A DNA stretch of 64,000 bases from Nitrososphaera sp. (GTDB taxonomy: Archaea; Thermoproteota; Nitrososphaeria; Nitrososphaerales; Nitrososphaeraceae). A program made the position numbers and the translations under genes. The notes under the pieces were generated by a model. It was not told the origin of the DNA, did no database searches, and saw only the letters and a program-made list of their open reading frames with translations. Each line of letters starts with the position of its first letter. Position 1 is the stretch's first letter. Location: contig JBDUUL010000010.1 of NCBI GenBank assembly GCA_039938515.1, positions 186,001 through 250,000 on the forward strand. The letters run 5' to 3'. This document shows positions 14,435 through 22,173 of this stretch, piece by piece.

Positions 14435-16572
14435 TACTTGGACCTCCCCTTTGTCTTTGGTTTGGCTCCAGGATCTTTATCGCCAATAATCTCGTCAAAT
14501 GTCATCTGCTGGTTGCTGGCACCGGCTGCCGGCGGGCGTTTCTGTTTTTCAATTCGGGCAGTCTCTGGAATTTCAGAAGAGCCGGGCTTGCCGCCTCTGC
14601 CTTGCTTGCGGGTAGACTTGGGCCTTTTGGTATCCGTTTCCTTTGACCTGCCCTTCTTTCTTGCGGCATCGATTGCAGCTTGCTCGTTGGCCGGCTTGAT
14701 CTCGGCCTTTTCCACCTGCTCGTCACTTTCCTCGGTTGCCTCTTCCTCAAGCCTGCTCTCGGTGATCTGGTCCTCCTTTTCTTCGACCTGAGTGCCGGTT
14801 ATTTCGCCGGTGACGTGCTTTTCGGCAAGCGTTGTGAAGGCACTATGTAGCTGCTTTGCGTCCACCTGTATGGACTCACTTATTGCATCAACGATAAGCG
14901 GGATATAGTACTTGTACAGGTTGAGCCTGTTTGCCGCGTCCTTCATGCGAAGCTCCTTTCTAATCTGGGTGCTGACCTTCCGATAAAGCTCCGAAAGGCA
15001 AGACTTCATGTACTTTTTAAGGTCGCCCTCGGATGCAATGCTCTCCTTGCCCGCGGTTTTGTACGGGATTTTAGTCGAGCAGATATGGAAAAAGATGTGT
15101 AGCGGTAAAAGCTCGACTGCCCTGTCGGACTTGACTTCCGCGTTTGCAAACTGCTCCTTGACTTCTTTTTTCGTAACGCCCATCTTGTTTATCTCCACTT
15201 CCGAAACGACTTCCCTGGCAACGTCCGAGCCCTCGTCGTAAAGCAGGGGGATTTTGTTTGCGAACCTGTACAGCTTGAACGACTCTATGTTGCCCCCATA
15301 GGCGATACCACATTCTACAATGGTGGGCCTGTTGTTGACAACGCACGTCCTAGACGCGTAGGCGGTCAGCGAAGGCTTGAGCACCTTTACCGAAATCTGG
15401 GGTTTTGAAACCTCATGCGTCGTCCCGTCTTGCGCAGCCGAGACTGTGACGGTCTCCCTGTTTGTAACGATGGTATACTGCGACGTCATGCCGGCCGTCA
15501 GGATCTCCTCGCCTATCGGGCTCAAGTGATCGGTATTTGGCTGCTGGAATATGGTCTGCTTGCAAATGTTTACGACCCTGATAAGCTCGTGCTCGGTGTA
15601 CTTGTCCGCAGGCTTGTGCTCAAGCTCCGCCTTTGCAATAATCTCCTTGGCCTTCTCGGACGACATTTTCTGAAAAGACTCGGACAGCACTCCCTGAAGA
15701 GTGGTCTTTTGGTTCATGAAATTCAGGATGGCCTTCTTGAGCGTCTGAAGGTCCATGTCGGCAGGATGGGGGAGAACTTCTCTGGCCGGCTGCGGCATGG
15801 TCTCAGTACGCCGCTCGAAGGTGACCTTGCCCTCGTCTGTCTCATATTCTATTACTGCGTAAGGGTTTACAACACTCGTCTGGCTGATGTACTCGTTAAT
15901 CTTGCCCTTCATCAGGTTCTTTGATATCGGCGAGAGCTTTGCCCGGAGGACCGCCTCGACCCTGAACCCCGACGCGCCGGCAATCACTCCTTCGCTTTCC
16001 CGGAGCGCCTTCCTTGCAAGCTCGATTGGCCTGTTGGTGCTAATGTCCGTGCGCAGCTCAAAGTAGTACTCGGACTTTTCCTCTCCGGACTTGGACCAGA
16101 CCTTCAGGGGATGGATGGTGTCCTTGGTGGAAAATGCGGCAATCATTTTCAGTCCTACGCCAAACAGCCCCCTCTGCTGCTTCTCTACGTACTTGCCGGA
16201 AGTCAGAAAGGAGCAGACGGCCACCGGCACCTTCTCATGAGGCACCCCGATGCCATTGTCCTCGCAGGTAATCGTCCAGAGGTCGTTTGCCTGGTCAAGC
16301 GTCTTGAGTGACAGGAATATCCTTGGAAGAACGTGGCCGGTTTCGCAGGAGTCAAGCGAGTTTTCTATGAGTTCCCTTACGGCCATGTAGAGTATGCGCT
16401 CTGTCGTAAAACCCGCCAGCGCGGAATTATCGACAAAGAACTCTGATTCCGCCTTTTTGTCATATCTTACCCTGCCCTTCTGAGGGCGGGTGGCTGATGG
16501 ATCACTGCCAGCCGGCAAAGATGGCGGCTTGGCCGCGGCAGCCTCGACCGCGACAGAAGTTTCTCTTTTCAA
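14434..16572 (-). CDS. top6B: DNA topoisomerase VI subunit B with charged C-terminal tail
   Basis: The 712-residue GHKL ATPase subunit of topoisomerase VI. ATP binding closes the clamp around the passing DNA segment. The Bergerat motifs are clear: N-box ELIENSLD (E67, N71, D74), G1 DNGIG (105-109) and G2 GLFGVG (135-140). An H2TH/transducer region follows to about residue 590. The last 120 residues are acidic, then Lys/Arg-rich low-complexity sequence, ending in a short hydrophobic motif (QMTFDEIIGD) and a basic end; this tail is not part of the core enzyme. It is the first gene of the top6B-top6A operon. Confidence 0.95.
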   Translation of the reverse strand: MKRETSVAVEAAAAKPPSLPAGSDPSATRPQKGRVRYDKKAESEFFVDNSALAGFTTERILYMAVRELIENSLDSCETGHVLPRIFLSLKTLDQANDLWTITCEDNGIGVPHEKVPVAVCSFLTSGKYVEKQQRGLFGVGLKMIAAFSTKDTIHPLKVWSKSGEEKSEYYFELRTDISTNRPIELARKALRESEGVIAGASGFRVEAVLRAKLSPISKNLMKGKINEYISQTSVVNPYAVIEYETDEGKVTFERRTETMPQPAREVLPHPADMDLQTLKKAILNFMNQKTTLQGVLSESFQKMSSEKAKEIIAKAELEHKPADKYTEHELIRVVNICKQTIFQQPNTDHLSPIGEEILTAGMTSQYTIVTNRETVTVSAAQDGTTHEVSKPQISVKVLKPSLTAYASRTCVVNNRPTIVECGIAYGGNIESFKLYRFANKIPLLYDEGSDVAREVVSEVEINKMGVTKKEVKEQFANAEVKSDRAVELLPLHIFFHICSTKIPYKTAGKESIASEGDLKKYMKSCLSELYRKVSTQIRKELRMKDAANRLNLYKYYIPLIVDAISESIQVDAKQLHSAFTTLAEKHVTGEITGTQVEEKEDQITESRLEEEATEESDEQVEKAEIKPANEQAAIDAARKKGRSKETDTKRPKSTRKQGRGGKPGSSEIPETARIEKQKRPPAAGASNQQMTFDEIIGDKDPGAKPKTKGRSK

Positions 16573-16645
16573 TACTCGTGGGGAAATTCTTTCGAAATCC
16601 TAATTTAGTCTTTTATGAAGAAAATCTGACCTCATGCGTGTTTTC

Positions 16646-17521
16646 TCATGCATGCTGGGTCAGGCCCCACCTGCTCCTGACCTTCTCTTCTATTTTCAGA
16701 AAGATAAGCCTGTCAAAGACTATGCCGATTGCAAAGATGGTAATCATTGTGGCGATTATCTGGCCCATGTCGTTAAAGTCCCGACCGACGGCAAGCACGT
16801 GACCCAGGCCGTAAAGGGTTGCAATGAGCATCTCTGCCCCAATGAGCGCGTGCCAGGCAAACGACCAGCCCTGCCGGAGTGCAATTATCAGAGATGGAGT
16901 TGCGGCAGGTATCATGACGTGCCGGAACAGCGCAAACCCGGTCGCGCCCATGTTCTTTGCTGACCTGATGTAAAGTGGAGGGATGTTTCTCATTGCGCTG
17001 TATGTGGAAATCATTATCGAAAACACCGAAGCCATGACGACCACAAACAGGATTGCAAAGTCGTTAAAGCCCATTAGCAGTATCGCAAACGGCACCCATG
17101 CGATGCTGGGGAAGGTCAGCAAACCGACGCCAAATGAGCTCATGGTCCTGCCAAAGCCGGGGAACCTCATCATGACAAGGCCGATAGAGCCGCCAAGGAT
17201 TACTGATATCGTAAAGCCTGCAAGAAGGCGGGCCATCGTCATGGCAAATCCTGTAACAAGGGAATAGTTTGCGACAAGATCCATTATCGTTCCTGCAACC
17301 TGCGCAGGAGCGGGAAGCAGGGTTTTCGGATAAATACCGCTTAGGGTTACTAGCTGCCATATGCCGATAAAGGCTGCAAGAAACAGCGCCGCGTTTGCGG
17401 CATCGGTCAGGTCGAACCGCCGCGACAACTGCTTGCCCTTGTCTCGCAGGATGTTCCTGCTCTGCTGCTTTGGCGCCTCTTCTTCAATCAAGGTCTTACT
17501 GCAGTCCCCCGCGCGTTGCAA
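16646..17521 (-). CDS. ABC transporter permease, sulfonate/nitrate/taurine type
   Basis: A 291-residue inner component of a BPD-type ABC importer (SsuC/TauC/NrtB family). After a charged N-terminus there are six hydrophobic segments; the EAA-like cytoplasmic loop is present around MRNIPPLYIRSAKNMGATG. The start lies inside the end of the ATPase gene (26-nt overlap), so the two are translated together. The operon order on the minus strand is binding protein, ATPase, permease. Family members carry organic sulfonates, taurine, nitrate or thiamine precursors; the substrate cannot be read from the permease. Confidence 0.9.
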   Translation of the reverse strand: MQRAGDCSKTLIEEEAPKQQSRNILRDKGKQLSRRFDLTDAANAALFLAAFIGIWQLVTLSGIYPKTLLPAPAQVAGTIMDLVANYSLVTGFAMTMARLLAGFTISVILGGSIGLVMMRFPGFGRTMSSFGVGLLTFPSIAWVPFAILLMGFNDFAILFVVVMASVFSIMISTYSAMRNIPPLYIRSAKNMGATGFALFRHVMIPAATPSLIIALRQGWSFAWHALIGAEMLIATLYGLGHVLAVGRDFNDMGQIIATMITIFAIGIVFDRLIFLKIEEKVRSRWGLTQHA

Positions 17522-18356
17522 GCTTCATGCGCTCGCGTGCAATCTGAAAGTCATGTTCAAGGCTCCTTAAAATCTGGCTCTTTACCTGAAGAACCTCCTT
17601 GCTGTTTGGGTCGCGCGGCTGCGGCAGGTCTACCTTGACGTCCTCCCTTATCCCCTTGCTGGAAGGATGTGACGAAAAGACGAGGACCCGGGTCCCAAGG
17701 AGGACCGCCTCGTTGATGTCATGGGTGACAAAGACTATTGTCTTTCTTGTAGTCTCGTGTATTCGCAGGAGCTCGGCATAAAGCATCCTTCTCGTGTTCA
17801 TGTCAAGCGCTGCAAAGGGCTCGTCCATCAGCAATATGTCTGGATTGAGAGCCAGCGCCCGCGCGATCGCGGCGCGCTGCTTCATGCCGCCTGAAAGCTG
17901 GTGGACATACGAATCTGCAAACTGCGAAAGGTTCACGGTCTCAATCAGGCTATCGACGGTATTCTTGCGCCTCTGGTGGTCAATCCCTGCTACCTTGAGG
18001 CCAAACTCGATGTTCTGCCTTACGGTGAGCCAGGGGTATAGCGCGCCTTCCTGAAAGATAACAAGCCTGTGCGGGTCGGTGCCGTGCCTTTCCTCGCCGC
18101 GGACAAGAATTTGGCCGGAATCCGGCTTTTCAAGGCCAGCAATTACGTTGAGAAAGGTGCTCTTGCCGCAGCCCGATGGCCCAAGGACTGTCACAAACTC
18201 GCCCTCGCTAATATCGACGCTTAGGCCCTCAAACACAAAGTGAGCAGTCTCCTCGGAGGTCTGCTGGCTTAGAGGATAAGACTTGGATATATTGGAAACC
18301 CGGAGAATTGGAGTGCTGACCTCGATAGACTGAAAACTCTTGGAAAACGAGTCCAT
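17496..18356 (-). CDS. ABC transporter ATPase, sulfonate/nitrate/taurine type
   Basis: A 286-residue ABC ATPase of the SsuB/TauB/NrtD group. Walker A is GPSGCGKST (about 59-67), the signature is LSGGMKQR, Walker B is ILLMDEPFAALD and the switch histidine lies in VFVTHD. It energises import through the permease encoded by the overlapping downstream gene. ATG start. It lies 151 nt after the binding-protein gene on the same strand. Confidence 0.92.
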   Translation of the reverse strand: MDSFSKSFQSIEVSTPILRVSNISKSYPLSQQTSEETAHFVFEGLSVDISEGEFVTVLGPSGCGKSTFLNVIAGLEKPDSGQILVRGEERHGTDPHRLVIFQEGALYPWLTVRQNIEFGLKVAGIDHQRRKNTVDSLIETVNLSQFADSYVHQLSGGMKQRAAIARALALNPDILLMDEPFAALDMNTRRMLYAELLRIHETTRKTIVFVTHDINEAVLLGTRVLVFSSHPSSKGIREDVKVDLPQPRDPNSKEVLQVKSQILRSLEHDFQIARERMKLATRGGLQ

Positions 18357-18507
18357 TTACTTACTCTCCTGCATTGGATTGTGCGTGCCAATATAAGCCC
18401 CGGCAAAGGCGCATCGCCAACACGATATGTGCAGTTTTTGCATATAATTTAAGGTGCCGTCTCCAATTTTGGCATAATTACTACGCCATCCCTCCCAGTG
18501 GACAGGT

Positions 18508-19584
18508 CTATTGAGAAATCGGCGGGAGCCCCTTGGAACGAAGCACTTCGGCAAGCGCCGAAAGGTCATAAAGGCCGCCAAGCTGGGGTTCTTGCTTTAG
18601 AAAGCCGATGGTGTATGCGTCATTTGCCGACTTTAAAAGAGTTGCCTTGAGCGGGTCGAAGGTGAACTGGACATGAGAGAATGCCTCTCGCAATTCGCTG
18701 TCGGGCAGAGACTTGCCCGTGAGAATCTTTAGTTGCGCGTTAAAGTCGGCCCGCGCGTCGTCCGGGTGCGAGTTAATCCAGTTTGTCTCGTCGACTGTGG
18801 CCTCTAGAAGGTTCTTTATCAGCGTCGGATTTCGCTCCAAAAAGTCAGTCCTGGCAATCAAGTTAGTAGTCACGAACTGACCGCCCTTCCAGAGTGACCT
18901 TTCGTCAAGAAAAACATGGGTGTTTGCCTCGTGGACAAGCCTCGTACCCCACGGTTCCGGAACCCAGGCGCCATCAATGCTCTTTTTTTGCATCAAAGTC
19001 ATGATGTCGGAATTGGTTGCAGGAAGCACCCTGACATCTCCGTCGGGTCTGTATCCGTTGGCAACAAGATAGGACCGAAGGGCAACGTCCTGAGTATTGC
19101 CGAGCTGAGGCGACGCAAATGTCTTGCCTGCAAAATCGTGCACCGACTGGATGCCGGAATCATTTCGCACGACAAACAGCACTCCGCCGCTTGCAGCCCC
19201 TGCAATCACTCTGAATGCATCGCCATGGGACTGCATGTAGCCGTTGATGGTGGGATTTGGACCAACGTAGGCGACGTCAATCTGGTTTGCAAAAAGCGCC
19301 TCGATCGCCGAGGGGCCAGAGTCGAAAACCTGCCCTTTAACCTCGACATCTCCCTGAAAGTGCTTCTTGTAGTCGCCGTTTCCAAGACCGATTACCGCCG
19401 GCGCATGTCCCAGGCTCGCAAAGTATCCAATCCTTATGGTTTTCTGCTCCGGGCCCGCCGGAGCGAAGGCATTGCCCGCGCCAATGCCCTTTGAGAGCGG
19501 AAGAGAAGTCAGGATAACAGCAGCAACTATTGCGCCTGCTATCGAGAACTTGATTGCGTTTTGCATCGTATAGTGTGCTTGCAT
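18508..19584 (-). CDS. ABC transporter substrate-binding protein, SsuA/TauA-like
   Basis: A 358-residue exported periplasmic-type binding protein of the NMT1/SsuA family. A hydrophobic signal or anchor (about residues 12-35) precedes the two-lobed domain, with the family opening IRIGYFASLGHAPAVIG, then FDSGPSAIEALFANQIDVAYVGPNPTI split over two conserved segments. It captures a small anion, probably an organic sulfonate or related compound, outside the membrane. ATG 19584 is possible; the in-frame ATG at 19566 better fits the signal peptide and a TATA-like stretch near 19600. It is divergent from the ComA-like regulator candidate at 19710. Confidence 0.88.
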   Translation of the reverse strand: MQAHYTMQNAIKFSIAGAIVAAVILTSLPLSKGIGAGNAFAPAGPEQKTIRIGYFASLGHAPAVIGLGNGDYKKHFQGDVEVKGQVFDSGPSAIEALFANQIDVAYVGPNPTINGYMQSHGDAFRVIAGAASGGVLFVVRNDSGIQSVHDFAGKTFASPQLGNTQDVALRSYLVANGYRPDGDVRVLPATNSDIMTLMQKKSIDGAWVPEPWGTRLVHEANTHVFLDERSLWKGGQFVTTNLIARTDFLERNPTLIKNLLEATVDETNWINSHPDDARADFNAQLKILTGKSLPDSELREAFSHVQFTFDPLKATLLKSANDAYTIGFLKQEPQLGGLYDLSALAEVLRSKGLPPISQ

Positions 19585-19709
19585 CCATGCCGACCCGCAT
19601 TAATACCACTCGGGAGTACAATCAAACAACTACCATGCGATAGAGTTGCCTGCGCGGGAGACTGGCAGGACAAATTCAAAATAGCAGCACGCCGAGCTAT
19701 GTACGAGGC
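19585..19709. promoter_or_regulatory. Divergent promoter region between ABC operon and ComA-wHTH gene
   Basis: This 125-nt spacer must hold promoters in both directions. A TATA-like TATTAAT lies near 19600-19606 on the ABC side. It is the natural place for an operator if the divergent winged-helix protein controls the transporter; no perfect long palindrome is visible. Confidence 0.4.
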
Positions 19710-20696
19710 ATGCTTGAAGACCTTGCCAAGAACCGCATAGACACCTCCAAGCCACGCGAGGAGGGCCGTACGTACATCATCGACAAGCTCGAGGGTCTTG
19801 ACAGGGACGGCTTTGCACTAATCGCGCCTTTTATCGACGTCGTCAAGATTTACGGCGTGATTCCGCTGCTGCTAGATGAAGCCGCGGTGGAGAAGAGGAT
19901 CAAGTTCTATCATGACCACGGCGTCAGGGTCTCTACCGGTTCTACGATATCAGAGTACATGATTGCCGAAAACTCCTTTGACAAGTTTGTCGGGATTGCA
20001 AGCCGCGTGGGGTTTGACATGGTAGAGATCGCCGAGAACACCTCGGATCTGAATTTTGAGCAAAAGCGCAAGGTGACTGACACTGCAAGTGCAAAGAACC
20101 TTGAGGTCCAGTGGAAGGTGGGCAAGAAAGACCCGAGGCATCAGCTGGACGCCGACAAGTTGCTTCAGAAAGTCGAGGAGGGAATAAAGCTGGGCTCTGA
20201 CAAGATAGTCTTGGAGGCAAACGAAGGCGTAAACGTCGGCATATACGACGAGAAGGGTTTTGTCAGATGGGCGATGCTCGGCGCGCTGACCTCAAAGTTC
20301 CCGCCTAGCACGTTTATCTTTGAGGCGCCGATGGAGTTCCAGCAATCGGCCCTGATTGCCGAGTTTGGGCAGAGGGTTAACCTTGCCGAGGTGAGGCTCG
20401 ACGCGGTGACTTCAATCGAATCGCAGAGGCGCGGCTTTTTGGCGAAATCGTCGTTTACCGCGTCGTATACAAGGCGGGATCCCGAGGGCGGGCCCGCGAC
20501 CAAATTCGTTTACTTTATCATCCGCACCCGAAATCCCATTGAGCAGGCTGAACTTATACAGATGACGCACCTGCCAAGGCGCACAGTTCAGAACGCTATT
20601 GACGAGCTGCGCGACCAGGGCTTGATAATTGAGCGGACGAGCCTCGACGACGCGCGCAAGAAGGTGTACCATCCAGTACAGTCAGAATGGCTCTGA
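19710..20696 (+). CDS. ComA-like TIM barrel fused to winged-helix DNA-binding domain
   Basis: A 328-residue two-domain protein. Residues 20-250 match phosphosulfolactate synthase (ComA), which adds sulfite to phosphoenolpyruvate in coenzyme M synthesis: segments such as IDVVK, GSTISEYM, VEIAENTSDL, VGKKDP, FIFEAP and NLAEVRLDAV follow the family order. Residues 253-328 form a MarR/ArsR-like winged helix with a recognition helix around PRRTVQNAIDELRDQG and a wing rich in Arg/Lys. From memory of methanogen ComA, some active-site positions look changed, so it may sense a ligand instead of catalysing. Coenzyme M is not known in ammonia-oxidising archaea. The divergent sulfonate-type ABC operon suggests control of sulfonate uptake. 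ATG start at 19710. Confidence 0.82.
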   Translation: MLEDLAKNRIDTSKPREEGRTYIIDKLEGLDRDGFALIAPFIDVVKIYGVIPLLLDEAAVEKRIKFYHDHGVRVSTGSTISEYMIAENSFDKFVGIASRVGFDMVEIAENTSDLNFEQKRKVTDTASAKNLEVQWKVGKKDPRHQLDADKLLQKVEEGIKLGSDKIVLEANEGVNVGIYDEKGFVRWAMLGALTSKFPPSTFIFEAPMEFQQSALIAEFGQRVNLAEVRLDAVTSIESQRRGFLAKSSFTASYTRRDPEGGPATKFVYFIIRTRNPIEQAELIQMTHLPRRTVQNAIDELRDQGLIIERTSLDDARKKVYHPVQSEWL

Positions 20697-20727
20697 GCCG
20701 AGCAGAATCTTTAGCGACAAGGAGCGT

Positions 20728-20901
20728 CTAGTCGATCTGTGAGCCATAAGGAGTACCTGCGTGCTTTAGTTCCTTGATGCTCCATGAGGCGAAGTCAACA
20801 AGTAGCCGCTTCTTGCCCTTCTGTATCACGATAAAGTCTGACCCCGAGCCTACGACAATGCCATCAACGAGATCCTTTAACTGCACGCCGCGGATCTGCA
20901 T
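20728..20901 (-). CDS. 57-residue conserved-looking small protein
   Basis: A short gene read directly from the sequence: ATG at 20901, stop TAG at 20728-20730. The product starts MQIRGVQLKDLVDGIVV and continues as a small beta-barrel-like sequence (DFIVIQKGKKRLLVDF) ending in a helix and a polar tail. Alternating hydrophobic strands, a lack of rare codons and a clean start argue that it is real. It is convergent with the ComA-wHTH gene, 31 nt from its stop. Function unknown. Confidence 0.65.
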   Translation of the reverse strand: MQIRGVQLKDLVDGIVVGSGSDFIVIQKGKKRLLVDFASWSIKELKHAGTPYGSQID

Positions 20902-21027
20902 GGGAACAATATAACTCTCTATTGTCTGAAGATTAGCCGCACAGCTTAACTACCATTGCGCTCATTACTTCACGGTGCATGGCTTCTGGAAGAATTCAAG
21001 AATTATTGCTAATTATGGGAGCCAGTC

Positions 21028-21402
21028 TTGATGGACTTTTATGAGGTTTGCCAACGAATAGTAGGCCTTCACGAGTCAATCTTTGCTTCCGCGTTGCTTG
21101 AGGAAGGGGTAATTCGAGCGATCCGAATTAGATCAGGCGAGCAACTAGAACAACAGAGGCTTGACACAATAATGGCCCAGTTCTGGCGCGGGTCTGCATT
21201 TTTCCGCGAGAGCGAAGCCCTGTTTGGCGTCATGCAGCACCTAGTAGTGCACTACAACAGCGCAGATGTGATGATGTTCTCAGTCATTCTTAACGGCAGG
21301 CAGTTCCGGCTAGCAGTATTTGCAAAGCACGGCTACGTCCACGAGGAACTGGTCGAAAAGATAGGCATGTACCTTGCGGATCTCAAAGCACACAAGGCCT
21401 GA
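21028..21402 (+). CDS. Small roadblock/profilin-like protein
   Basis: A 124-residue soluble protein. TTG 21028 is directly followed by ATG 21031; the ATG is the more natural start. The order helix, strand (FASALLEEGVIRAIRI), long helix, strand pair (ADVMMFSVILNGRQFRLAVFAK) and final helix resembles roadblock-like domains and parallels the protein at 12559-12984. Such proteins often pair with small GTPases, but none is encoded nearby. Function unknown. Confidence 0.65.
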   Translation: MMDFYEVCQRIVGLHESIFASALLEEGVIRAIRIRSGEQLEQQRLDTIMAQFWRGSAFFRESEALFGVMQHLVVHYNSADVMMFSVILNGRQFRLAVFAKHGYVHEELVEKIGMYLADLKAHKA

Positions 21403-21462
21403 AAGGGCGTTTAAAAACTTTCTACAGCACATTTTAATCCTGCCTGACATTTTTTCATACAG

Positions 21463-21780
21463 TTGAACGCCACGACTCTCGGTGCAGACTTTTCTTCAGG
21501 CACCTTCCTGACGATTCTCGGAGTTGCAGCGGCAATACTTACGACCTCTAGTTTTGTTCCACAACTAATCAAAGCCTACAGGACAAAGAGCTTGGGGGAC
21601 CTCTCTAGCTACCTGATGGTCATGTTCGCTTCCGGCACCTTTCTCTGGATGCTCTATGGCGTCTTCAAGGCCGACCCAGTCATAATAGCGGCAAACGCGG
21701 TGTCAAGCGGCTTTAACACGACGCTCCTTTACCTAAAGTTCTCGTACTGCAGGATACAGCAAAAAAAGACGTCAGTCTAG
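21463..21780 (+). CDS. SemiSWEET/PQ-loop membrane transporter
   Basis: A 105-residue protein with three transmembrane helices and the PQ-loop motif at the end of helix 1 (SFVPQLIKAYRTKS). This is the single triple-helix-bundle form (SemiSWEET), which works as a homodimer to let sugars cross the membrane down their gradient. The FLWMLYG and ANAVSSGFN segments match family positions in helices 2 and 3. Start is TTG 21463. For a presumed autotroph the substrate is unclear; export or uptake of a small sugar are both possible. Confidence 0.85.
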   Translation: MNATTLGADFSSGTFLTILGVAAAILTTSSFVPQLIKAYRTKSLGDLSSYLMVMFASGTFLWMLYGVFKADPVIIAANAVSSGFNTTLLYLKFSYCRIQQKKTSV

Positions 21781-21983
21781 AGTTCGCCGTCGTGCGTGAA
21801 CGCGTAGGGGTTGTTGCGCTGATTCTGGTTTGCCACGGCAACGGTGTTTTTGATAAGCTGGTACATGCTGTTGTGACATTCACAAGAGCACATTGCAGTC
21901 ATGGTATCATCCTGCGCAGTCCACCTGACAATTCCTTCGCATGTGCCGTGGTTATTCTGCAGGCAGTTGTCCGATTTGCGCAT
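21777..21983 (-). CDS. Small Cys/His-rich protein
   Basis: A 68-residue protein with ATG start, convergent with the SemiSWEET gene (4-nt overlap of ends). It has Cys7, His12, Cys15 and a CSCECH cluster (about residues 32-37), suggesting a zinc-binding fold of the C-x4-H-x2-C...C-x-C-x-C-H type. The second half is polar. I do not know a named family. The regular Cys/His spacing supports a real gene. Confidence 0.6.
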   Translation of the reverse strand: MRKSDNCLQNNHGTCEGIVRWTAQDDTMTAMCSCECHNSMYQLIKNTVAVANQNQRNNPYAFTHDGEL

Positions 21984-22173
21984 ACTCTTGTAATTGCTTG
22001 GTGCCTATTTCAACTGTTGTAGTCATTACTAGCCTGTCTTTCGAGATCTGCAGACACCACGTCTTTTGACCTTTTGCAGTTTCCTTCAAGTCGTTGTCAT
22101 CGTTATTCCTGTCCGCAATTGCGGGCTCGTGGACGAGCCCCGAAAAAAACAATTACGGTTTGAATTTTTGCTG

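Follow-up and report, generated by a model that had tools for sequence, protein, structure and literature searches.

Several one-component regulators derived from metabolic enzymes are known, among them BirA, PutA, NadR and the MocR/GntR-aminotransferase proteins. Each joins a metabolic enzyme domain to a DNA-binding domain and controls related genes, and the ComA-winged-helix fusion described here is built likewise. In enteric bacteria, the sulfonate systems SsuEADCB and TauABCD are controlled by the LysR-type regulators Cbl and CysB. These also act on an SsuABC-type importer, but they are unrelated to the fusion, and the relatives searched here have neither TauD nor an SsuD above cut-off.

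Each half of the fusion has its own closest described family. With ComA, the (2R)-phospho-3-sulfolactate synthase (EC 4.4.1.19; M. jannaschii, 1qwg; B. subtilis YitD, 1u83) that opens the coenzyme M pathway, it shares the TIM barrel and the equivalent of K137 (M. jannaschii numbering throughout), but it differs from these enzymes in its extra winged helix, in changes at the equivalents of E133, R170, S172, N227, K209 and R244, in a score below the equivalog cut-off and in a genome that lacks ComB. Its C-terminal 75 residues fold like MarR/SlyA-type regulators (MarR 3bpv, SlyA-like 4mnu) and its candidate operator is palindromic as theirs are; its winged helix, however, is joined to a barrel of enzyme origin where MarR has dimerisation helices of its own. 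A search of the open-access literature returned no account of ComA-winged-helix fusions or of the ComA fold as a sensor domain. While enzyme-derived one-component regulators as such are established, the ComA sensor fold and the lineage carrying it appear new.

Our main reading, to which we assign a probability of about 0.78, is that the fusion acts as a one-component regulator whose sensor domain derives from an enzyme, and that it controls the neighbouring SsuABC-type importer.

The fusion gene faces an SsuABC-type importer operon

The window is the whole 64,000-nt stretch of DNA analysed here. An ORF check recovered all four genes of the layout claimed by the earlier note, with the fusion gene facing an ssuA-ssuB-ssuC operon across 125 nt, just as it had described:

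16646..17521, minus strand: ssuC-like permease, 291 aa (PF00528, E 1e-11; SsuC and SaoP profile matches below cut-off)
17496..18356, minus strand: ssuB-like ATPase, 286 aa (PF00005, E 3e-34)
18508..19584, minus strand: ssuA-like periplasmic substrate-binding protein, 358 aa (TIGR01728, 205 bits, cut-off 163.5)
19585..19709: gap of 125 nt separating ssuA from the divergent fusion gene
19710..20696, plus strand: ComA-winged-helix fusion protein, 328 aa (ORF, Pfam, alignment, AlphaFold2 model)
19743..20441, plus strand: ComA-like TIM-barrel domain, residues 12-244 (PF02679, fold match 1qwg, residue table)
20493..20675, plus strand: winged-helix domain, residues 262-322 (MarR_2 when scanned alone; model and PDB matches to the MarR family)
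20577..20615, plus strand: predicted recognition helix, residues 290-302 (alignment of fusions, AlphaFold2 model)

The substrate-binding protein thus exceeds the SsuA_fam cut-off and has ATPase and permease genes adjoining, and SsuB and SsuC are clear family homologues yet fall below every curated NCBIfam cut-off. Across 37 genomes of the order TauD was absent and no SsuD exceeded its cut-off, so that no standard desulfonation route is visible. Judged from the SsuA_fam score, a sulfonate is the presumed substrate of the importer. An Rfam scan of positions 16000-22000 gave no match. The window's genome holds a second SsuA_fam gene (G000:C15:60317-61210; L149:8276), which has no ATPase, permease or fusion gene adjoining it.

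Domain architecture, distribution and phylogeny of the fusion

Pfam, profile and fold matches agree that a ComA barrel and a MarR-like winged helix lie in one 328-aa protein, as originally noticed. PF02679 (ComA) covers residues 12-244 and profile positions 4-241 of 243 (E 3.2e-64). The AlphaFold2 model of the full chain (pLDDT 87, 41 homologues in the alignment) retrieved M. jannaschii ComA 1qwg at Foldseek rank 1, with a TM score of 0.85 by target length and 31% identity, and the ComA-family protein 1u83 of B. subtilis at rank 3, with about 24% identity over the fold match. The presence of a winged helix was confirmed in two ways: the C-terminal part scanned alone scored 29.9 bits with MarR_2 against a cut-off of 27, and the last 75 residues folded alone (pLDDT 91) found MarR 3bpv as top PDB match, followed by other MarR-family structures. 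In the full model the helices that flank the winged helix of MarR and form its dimer are absent; the ComA barrel lies on the N-terminal side and the chain ends 6 residues past the wing. Within the predicted recognition helix, R290 R291 T292 x Q294 is invariant in 41 of 41 aligned fusions, those of Thermoplasmata included. In three fusions (L038, L039 and L045) the barrel is enlarged by a long insertion rich in Asn and Ser, placed between the VGKK and EANEG segments.

Searching 400 genomes of the order at the protein level returned matches in 80, mostly in the window's own family, with further full-length copies in families f8, f9, f10 and f14. The fusion family is old and length-conserved in Nitrososphaerales, many full-length homologues likewise having 328 aa, and their recurrence across the order shows that the two domains were not brought together by chance. 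Outside the order, soil Thermoplasmata MAGs encode the fusion together with its winged helix, at about 38% identity, and these proteins form the sister group of the Nitrososphaerales fusions. ComA homologues elsewhere in the phylum are rare (7 of 299 genomes, four of these with fusions). In the tree, all Nitrososphaeraceae-type fusions form one clade (support 100/100) whose long stem measures 1.06 changes per site, and the window protein belongs to an 8-member subclade in which every member with usable flanks is linked to ssuA. Some fusion copies are broken by stops or fragmentary (G206:C28:2206-3019, G142:C12:2341-2946, G201:C377 and G103:C10), which suggests repeated duplication and loss.

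The ComA pocket is altered in the window's clade

As a reference set we used the 102 positions at which the two solved enzymes, M. jannaschii ComA and B. subtilis YitD, have the same residue, and compared 61 proteins of the window's clade (clade A), 24 of Thermoplasmata type and 4 deep Nitrososphaerales fusions. The alignment bears out the suspicion that ComA-equivalent positions had changed: many positions of the pocket that are conserved elsewhere have been replaced, and the change from Glu to Trp-Lys before VGKK, pointed out in the earlier note, corresponds to E133 of LTEVGKK in M. jannaschii and K136 of QWKVGKK in the window protein. More specifically, in clade A E133 has become K in 60 of 61 proteins, R170 has become N and S172 is deleted in all 61, and N227 has become E in 59 of 61. 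G45-W46-G47 is replaced, mostly by Y-G-A or Y-G-V, G75 by S and G107 by N, and R244 and T247 are also changed; K209 is lost in all fusions. The window protein itself has K136, N171, E227 and Y48-G49-V50 and lacks the position of S172.

Other residues are kept. K137, which we take to be the general acid of ComA, is retained as K140 in the window protein and as K in 57 and R in 3 of the 61 clade-A proteins; D20, K43, E79, E103, E168 and E205 are retained as well, together with the equivalents of N224 and R240. With these residues conserved, the barrel may have kept some activity. In the Thermoplasmata-type and deep Nitrososphaerales fusions, most barrel-end residues are as in the enzymes.

Changed positions would lie mostly at the C-terminal ends of the barrel strands, where TIM barrels have their active site, judging from the model; 11 of 15 lost residues are at strand ends, a clustering that is not significant relative to the other conserved positions, which are likewise clustered (p 0.17). 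Because the replacements are uniform, the pocket of the window's clade looks re-made under selection, and not decayed.

The fusion scores 163.3 bits with TIGR03849, the archaeal ComA equivalog, whose cut-off is 280. ComB (PF04029), the next enzyme after ComA, is absent from the window's own genome and from 25 of 25 searched genomes of its family, which makes a metabolic ComA role unlikely. We accordingly rejected an intact metabolic ComA on the pocket changes, the equivalog cut-off and the missing ComB.

Linkage to the importer outlasts gene rearrangement

The commonest neighbours of the 99 fusions are SsuA (46), SsuC (39) and SsuB (33). We called a fusion linked if SsuA or SsuC lay within 3 kb, and counted fusions where 3 kb of sequence is known on both sides. 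By this measure 28 of 37 Nitrososphaerales fusions are linked: 25 of 34 in clade A and 3 of 3 from elsewhere in the order. The nine remaining clade-A fusions with good flanks lack a neighbouring transporter. Among the Thermoplasmata-type and remaining fusions with such flanks, none of 16 is linked. The proposed association with transporter genes therefore stands for the window's lineage and fails for Thermoplasmata. A role of Thermoplasmata fusions as SsuABC controllers was considered and found unsupported; nor did a convincing inverted repeat shared by their upstream regions turn up.

The expectation that the operon is always divergent from the fusion did not hold. Of the 38 linked clade-A fusions, 14 have a divergent-strand SsuA as their closest SsuA or SsuC gene and 17 have a same-strand SsuC, while 7 are arranged in some other way; divergent and co-directional orders occur, as does a fusion inside the operon. 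Since order and strand vary, the linkage has outlasted rearrangement. In four Nitrososphaera genomes (G010, G013, G014 and G015; 99% completeness, three of them single contigs), two fusions are paired one-to-one with the only two SsuA_fam proteins.

A second fusion lineage of Nitrosocosmicus (L033, L037 and L130; G018, G029 and G036) is transporter-free and without TGCA-N5-TGCA; its conserved neighbours encode a pyridoxamine-oxidase-like and a CAP-domain protein, and it possibly serves a different regulon. Two-domain rhodanese genes adjoin some transporter-free fusions (L105:8508-9353 and L095:2-919) and lie near others (L130 and L083), possibly another link to sulfur.

A candidate operator at ssu and fusion promoters

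Inverted repeats of all 4-mers with gaps 0-14 were enumerated in gene upstream regions and compared with 509 other genes of the same loci. TGCA-N5-TGCA ranked first upstream of ssuA, in 13 of 43 regions compared to 1.0 expected from the other genes, and here as below the motif counts come from related genomes and hence are not independent. Linked fusions yielded the same palindrome in their upstream regions (TATG-N9-CATA, TGCA-N5-TGCA). A strong peak is seen for gap 5 alone, at 5.3 and 6.4 per kb compared to 0.9 for other genes. Upstream regions of ssuB, which had no part in noticing the motif, contain it with at most one mismatch in 13 of 21 cases, relative to a mean of 2.8 over 200 shuffles, none of which exceeded 8. 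Before unlinked fusions the exact motif occurs in 0 of 21.

The window has the following elements in the ssuA-ssuB gap:

18430..18442: candidate operator TGCAGTTTTTGCA (TGCA-N5-TGCA), some 80 nt before the start of ssuB
18410..18422: putative degenerate second site, minus-strand reading TGTTGGCGATGCG, exactly 20 bp from the first, proposed from its position; relatives have better ones
18390..18397, minus strand: TATA-like element CTTATATT of the presumed ssuB promoter, read from the sequence

Within the 2.56-Mb genome of the window, the extended form TGCAN5TGCATAT has a single occurrence, at 18430-18445 in this gap; the extension was chosen after viewing the sites of relatives and of the window itself and is not a blind test. 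The window's divergent region 19585-19709, unlike that of close relatives, has no TGCA-N5-TGCA within 2 mismatches. In several ssuB promoters a pair of sites, spaced exactly 20 bp, precedes CTTTGAA and ATTATAT. This composite promoter, at 0-1 mismatches, has eight matches in 61 genomes, all at ssu or fusion loci; as the pattern was written from promoters of partly the same genomes, the informative part is its absence elsewhere. TGCA-N5-TGCA by itself also occurs elsewhere in some genomes. An exact copy inside the ssuA coding sequence (19192-19204) is probably due to chance.

Two further elements were seen at related loci. In G014 (L034:7691-7860) and G015 (L127:11086-11255), the same promoter element lies downstream of the fusion before an 84%-identical stretch with no obvious ORF, at whose end are a strong G+C hairpin and a run of T. 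This arrangement was not found in the other fetched loci and is possibly a small RNA of the regulon. In the deep Nitrososphaerales loci L098, L108 and L131, a 13-bp palindrome ATAACGSCGTTAT (ATAACGCCGTTAT or ATAACGGCGTTAT) between ssuA and the fusion adjoins a TATA-like sequence, and perhaps represents these fusions' own operator.

Proposed mechanism and alternative explanations

The domains, the pocket, the linkage and the operator together fit a sensor-regulator role for the fusion. As a one-component transcription regulator, it would bind TGCA-N5-TGCA palindromes through its C-terminal MarR-like winged helix. The N-terminal barrel, having probably lost phosphosulfolactate synthesis in the window's lineage, would bind a small anion, which may be a sulfonate, sulfite or a phosphorylated three-carbon acid, and the fusion would control the neighbouring importer. 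In archaea, the common position of an activator is directly upstream of BRE/TATA, and that of a repressor is over TATA or the start. In relatives, sites lie just upstream of the ssuB TATA box, and also about 22 nt before the fusion start, overlapping the TATA region; from these positions we propose that the fusion may activate ssuB and repress itself. The computation establishes which domains are present, that the pocket is re-made, that the genes are linked and that the motif is enriched; DNA binding by the fusion, ligand sensing, the sign of control and the sulfonate substrate are all parts of the model that we infer. Several findings weigh against a regulator: K137 and the acidic residues are kept, the window's own divergent region has no good site, nine clade-A fusions are unlinked and the genome's second SsuA has no fusion beside it.

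The retained residues K137, E103, E168, E205, N224 and R240, and the largely enzyme-like pocket of the Thermoplasmata and deep Nitrososphaerales fusions, would suit a trigger enzyme, in which a still catalytic barrel (a modified sulfonation or C-S lyase reaction?) is coupled by the winged helix to transcription according to flux, on the model of enzyme-repressors such as BirA and PutA. For the window's clade we consider this unlikely, given the charge reversal at E133, the loss of R170, S172 and R244, the N227E change, a TIGR03849 score of 163 against 280 and a family without ComB. That the fusion is nothing but a normal phosphosulfolactate synthase whose C-terminal extension is of no relevance, as its high Pfam ComA score might lead automated naming to state, is very hard to credit, since the winged helix is conserved with an invariant recognition motif, the pocket is altered and the downstream pathway is missing.

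The palindrome might instead belong to another regulator, the fusion being a mere neighbour or acting through protein contacts. The lack of a good site in the window's divergent region and the presence of the motif elsewhere in some genomes speak for this; we nevertheless judge it improbable, as the motif precedes linked fusions and is missing before unlinked ones, is found at ssuA, ssuB and fusion alike, and has a dyad symmetry that suits a dimeric winged helix. A more serious contender, though still a tentative one, concerns the substrate: the operon may import nitrate, bicarbonate or another organic anion, to which the sensor would respond. SsuB and SsuC below all NCBIfam cut-offs and the missing TauD and SsuD are consistent with such a substrate, whereas the SsuA score and the descent of the regulator's domain from a sulfonate-making enzyme family argue for a sulfonate.

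Implications for ammonia-oxidising archaea

ComA-like genes of many archaeal genomes may carry a phosphosulfolactate synthase annotation and be read as evidence of coenzyme M or sulfolactate synthesis, a reading that is probably wrong in the window's lineage. We see an even chance that these proteins constitute a new archaeal class of one-component regulators, with a sensor descended from an enzyme of sulfonate synthesis and with intermediates that survive: the deep Nitrososphaerales fusions, which lie beside ssuA and have kept an enzyme-like pocket, and those of Nitrososphaeraceae, in which the pocket is re-made and a TGCA-N5-TGCA regulon is present. On that view, ammonia-oxidising archaea would sense and import organosulfonates. 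Between them, the fusions form a graded series of pockets, from enzyme-like to re-made, and the proposed operator is open to testing. The open-access papers searched yielded nothing on the control of organic-sulfur uptake in soil ammonia oxidisers, and the locus provides a lead on this control in these globally abundant organisms.
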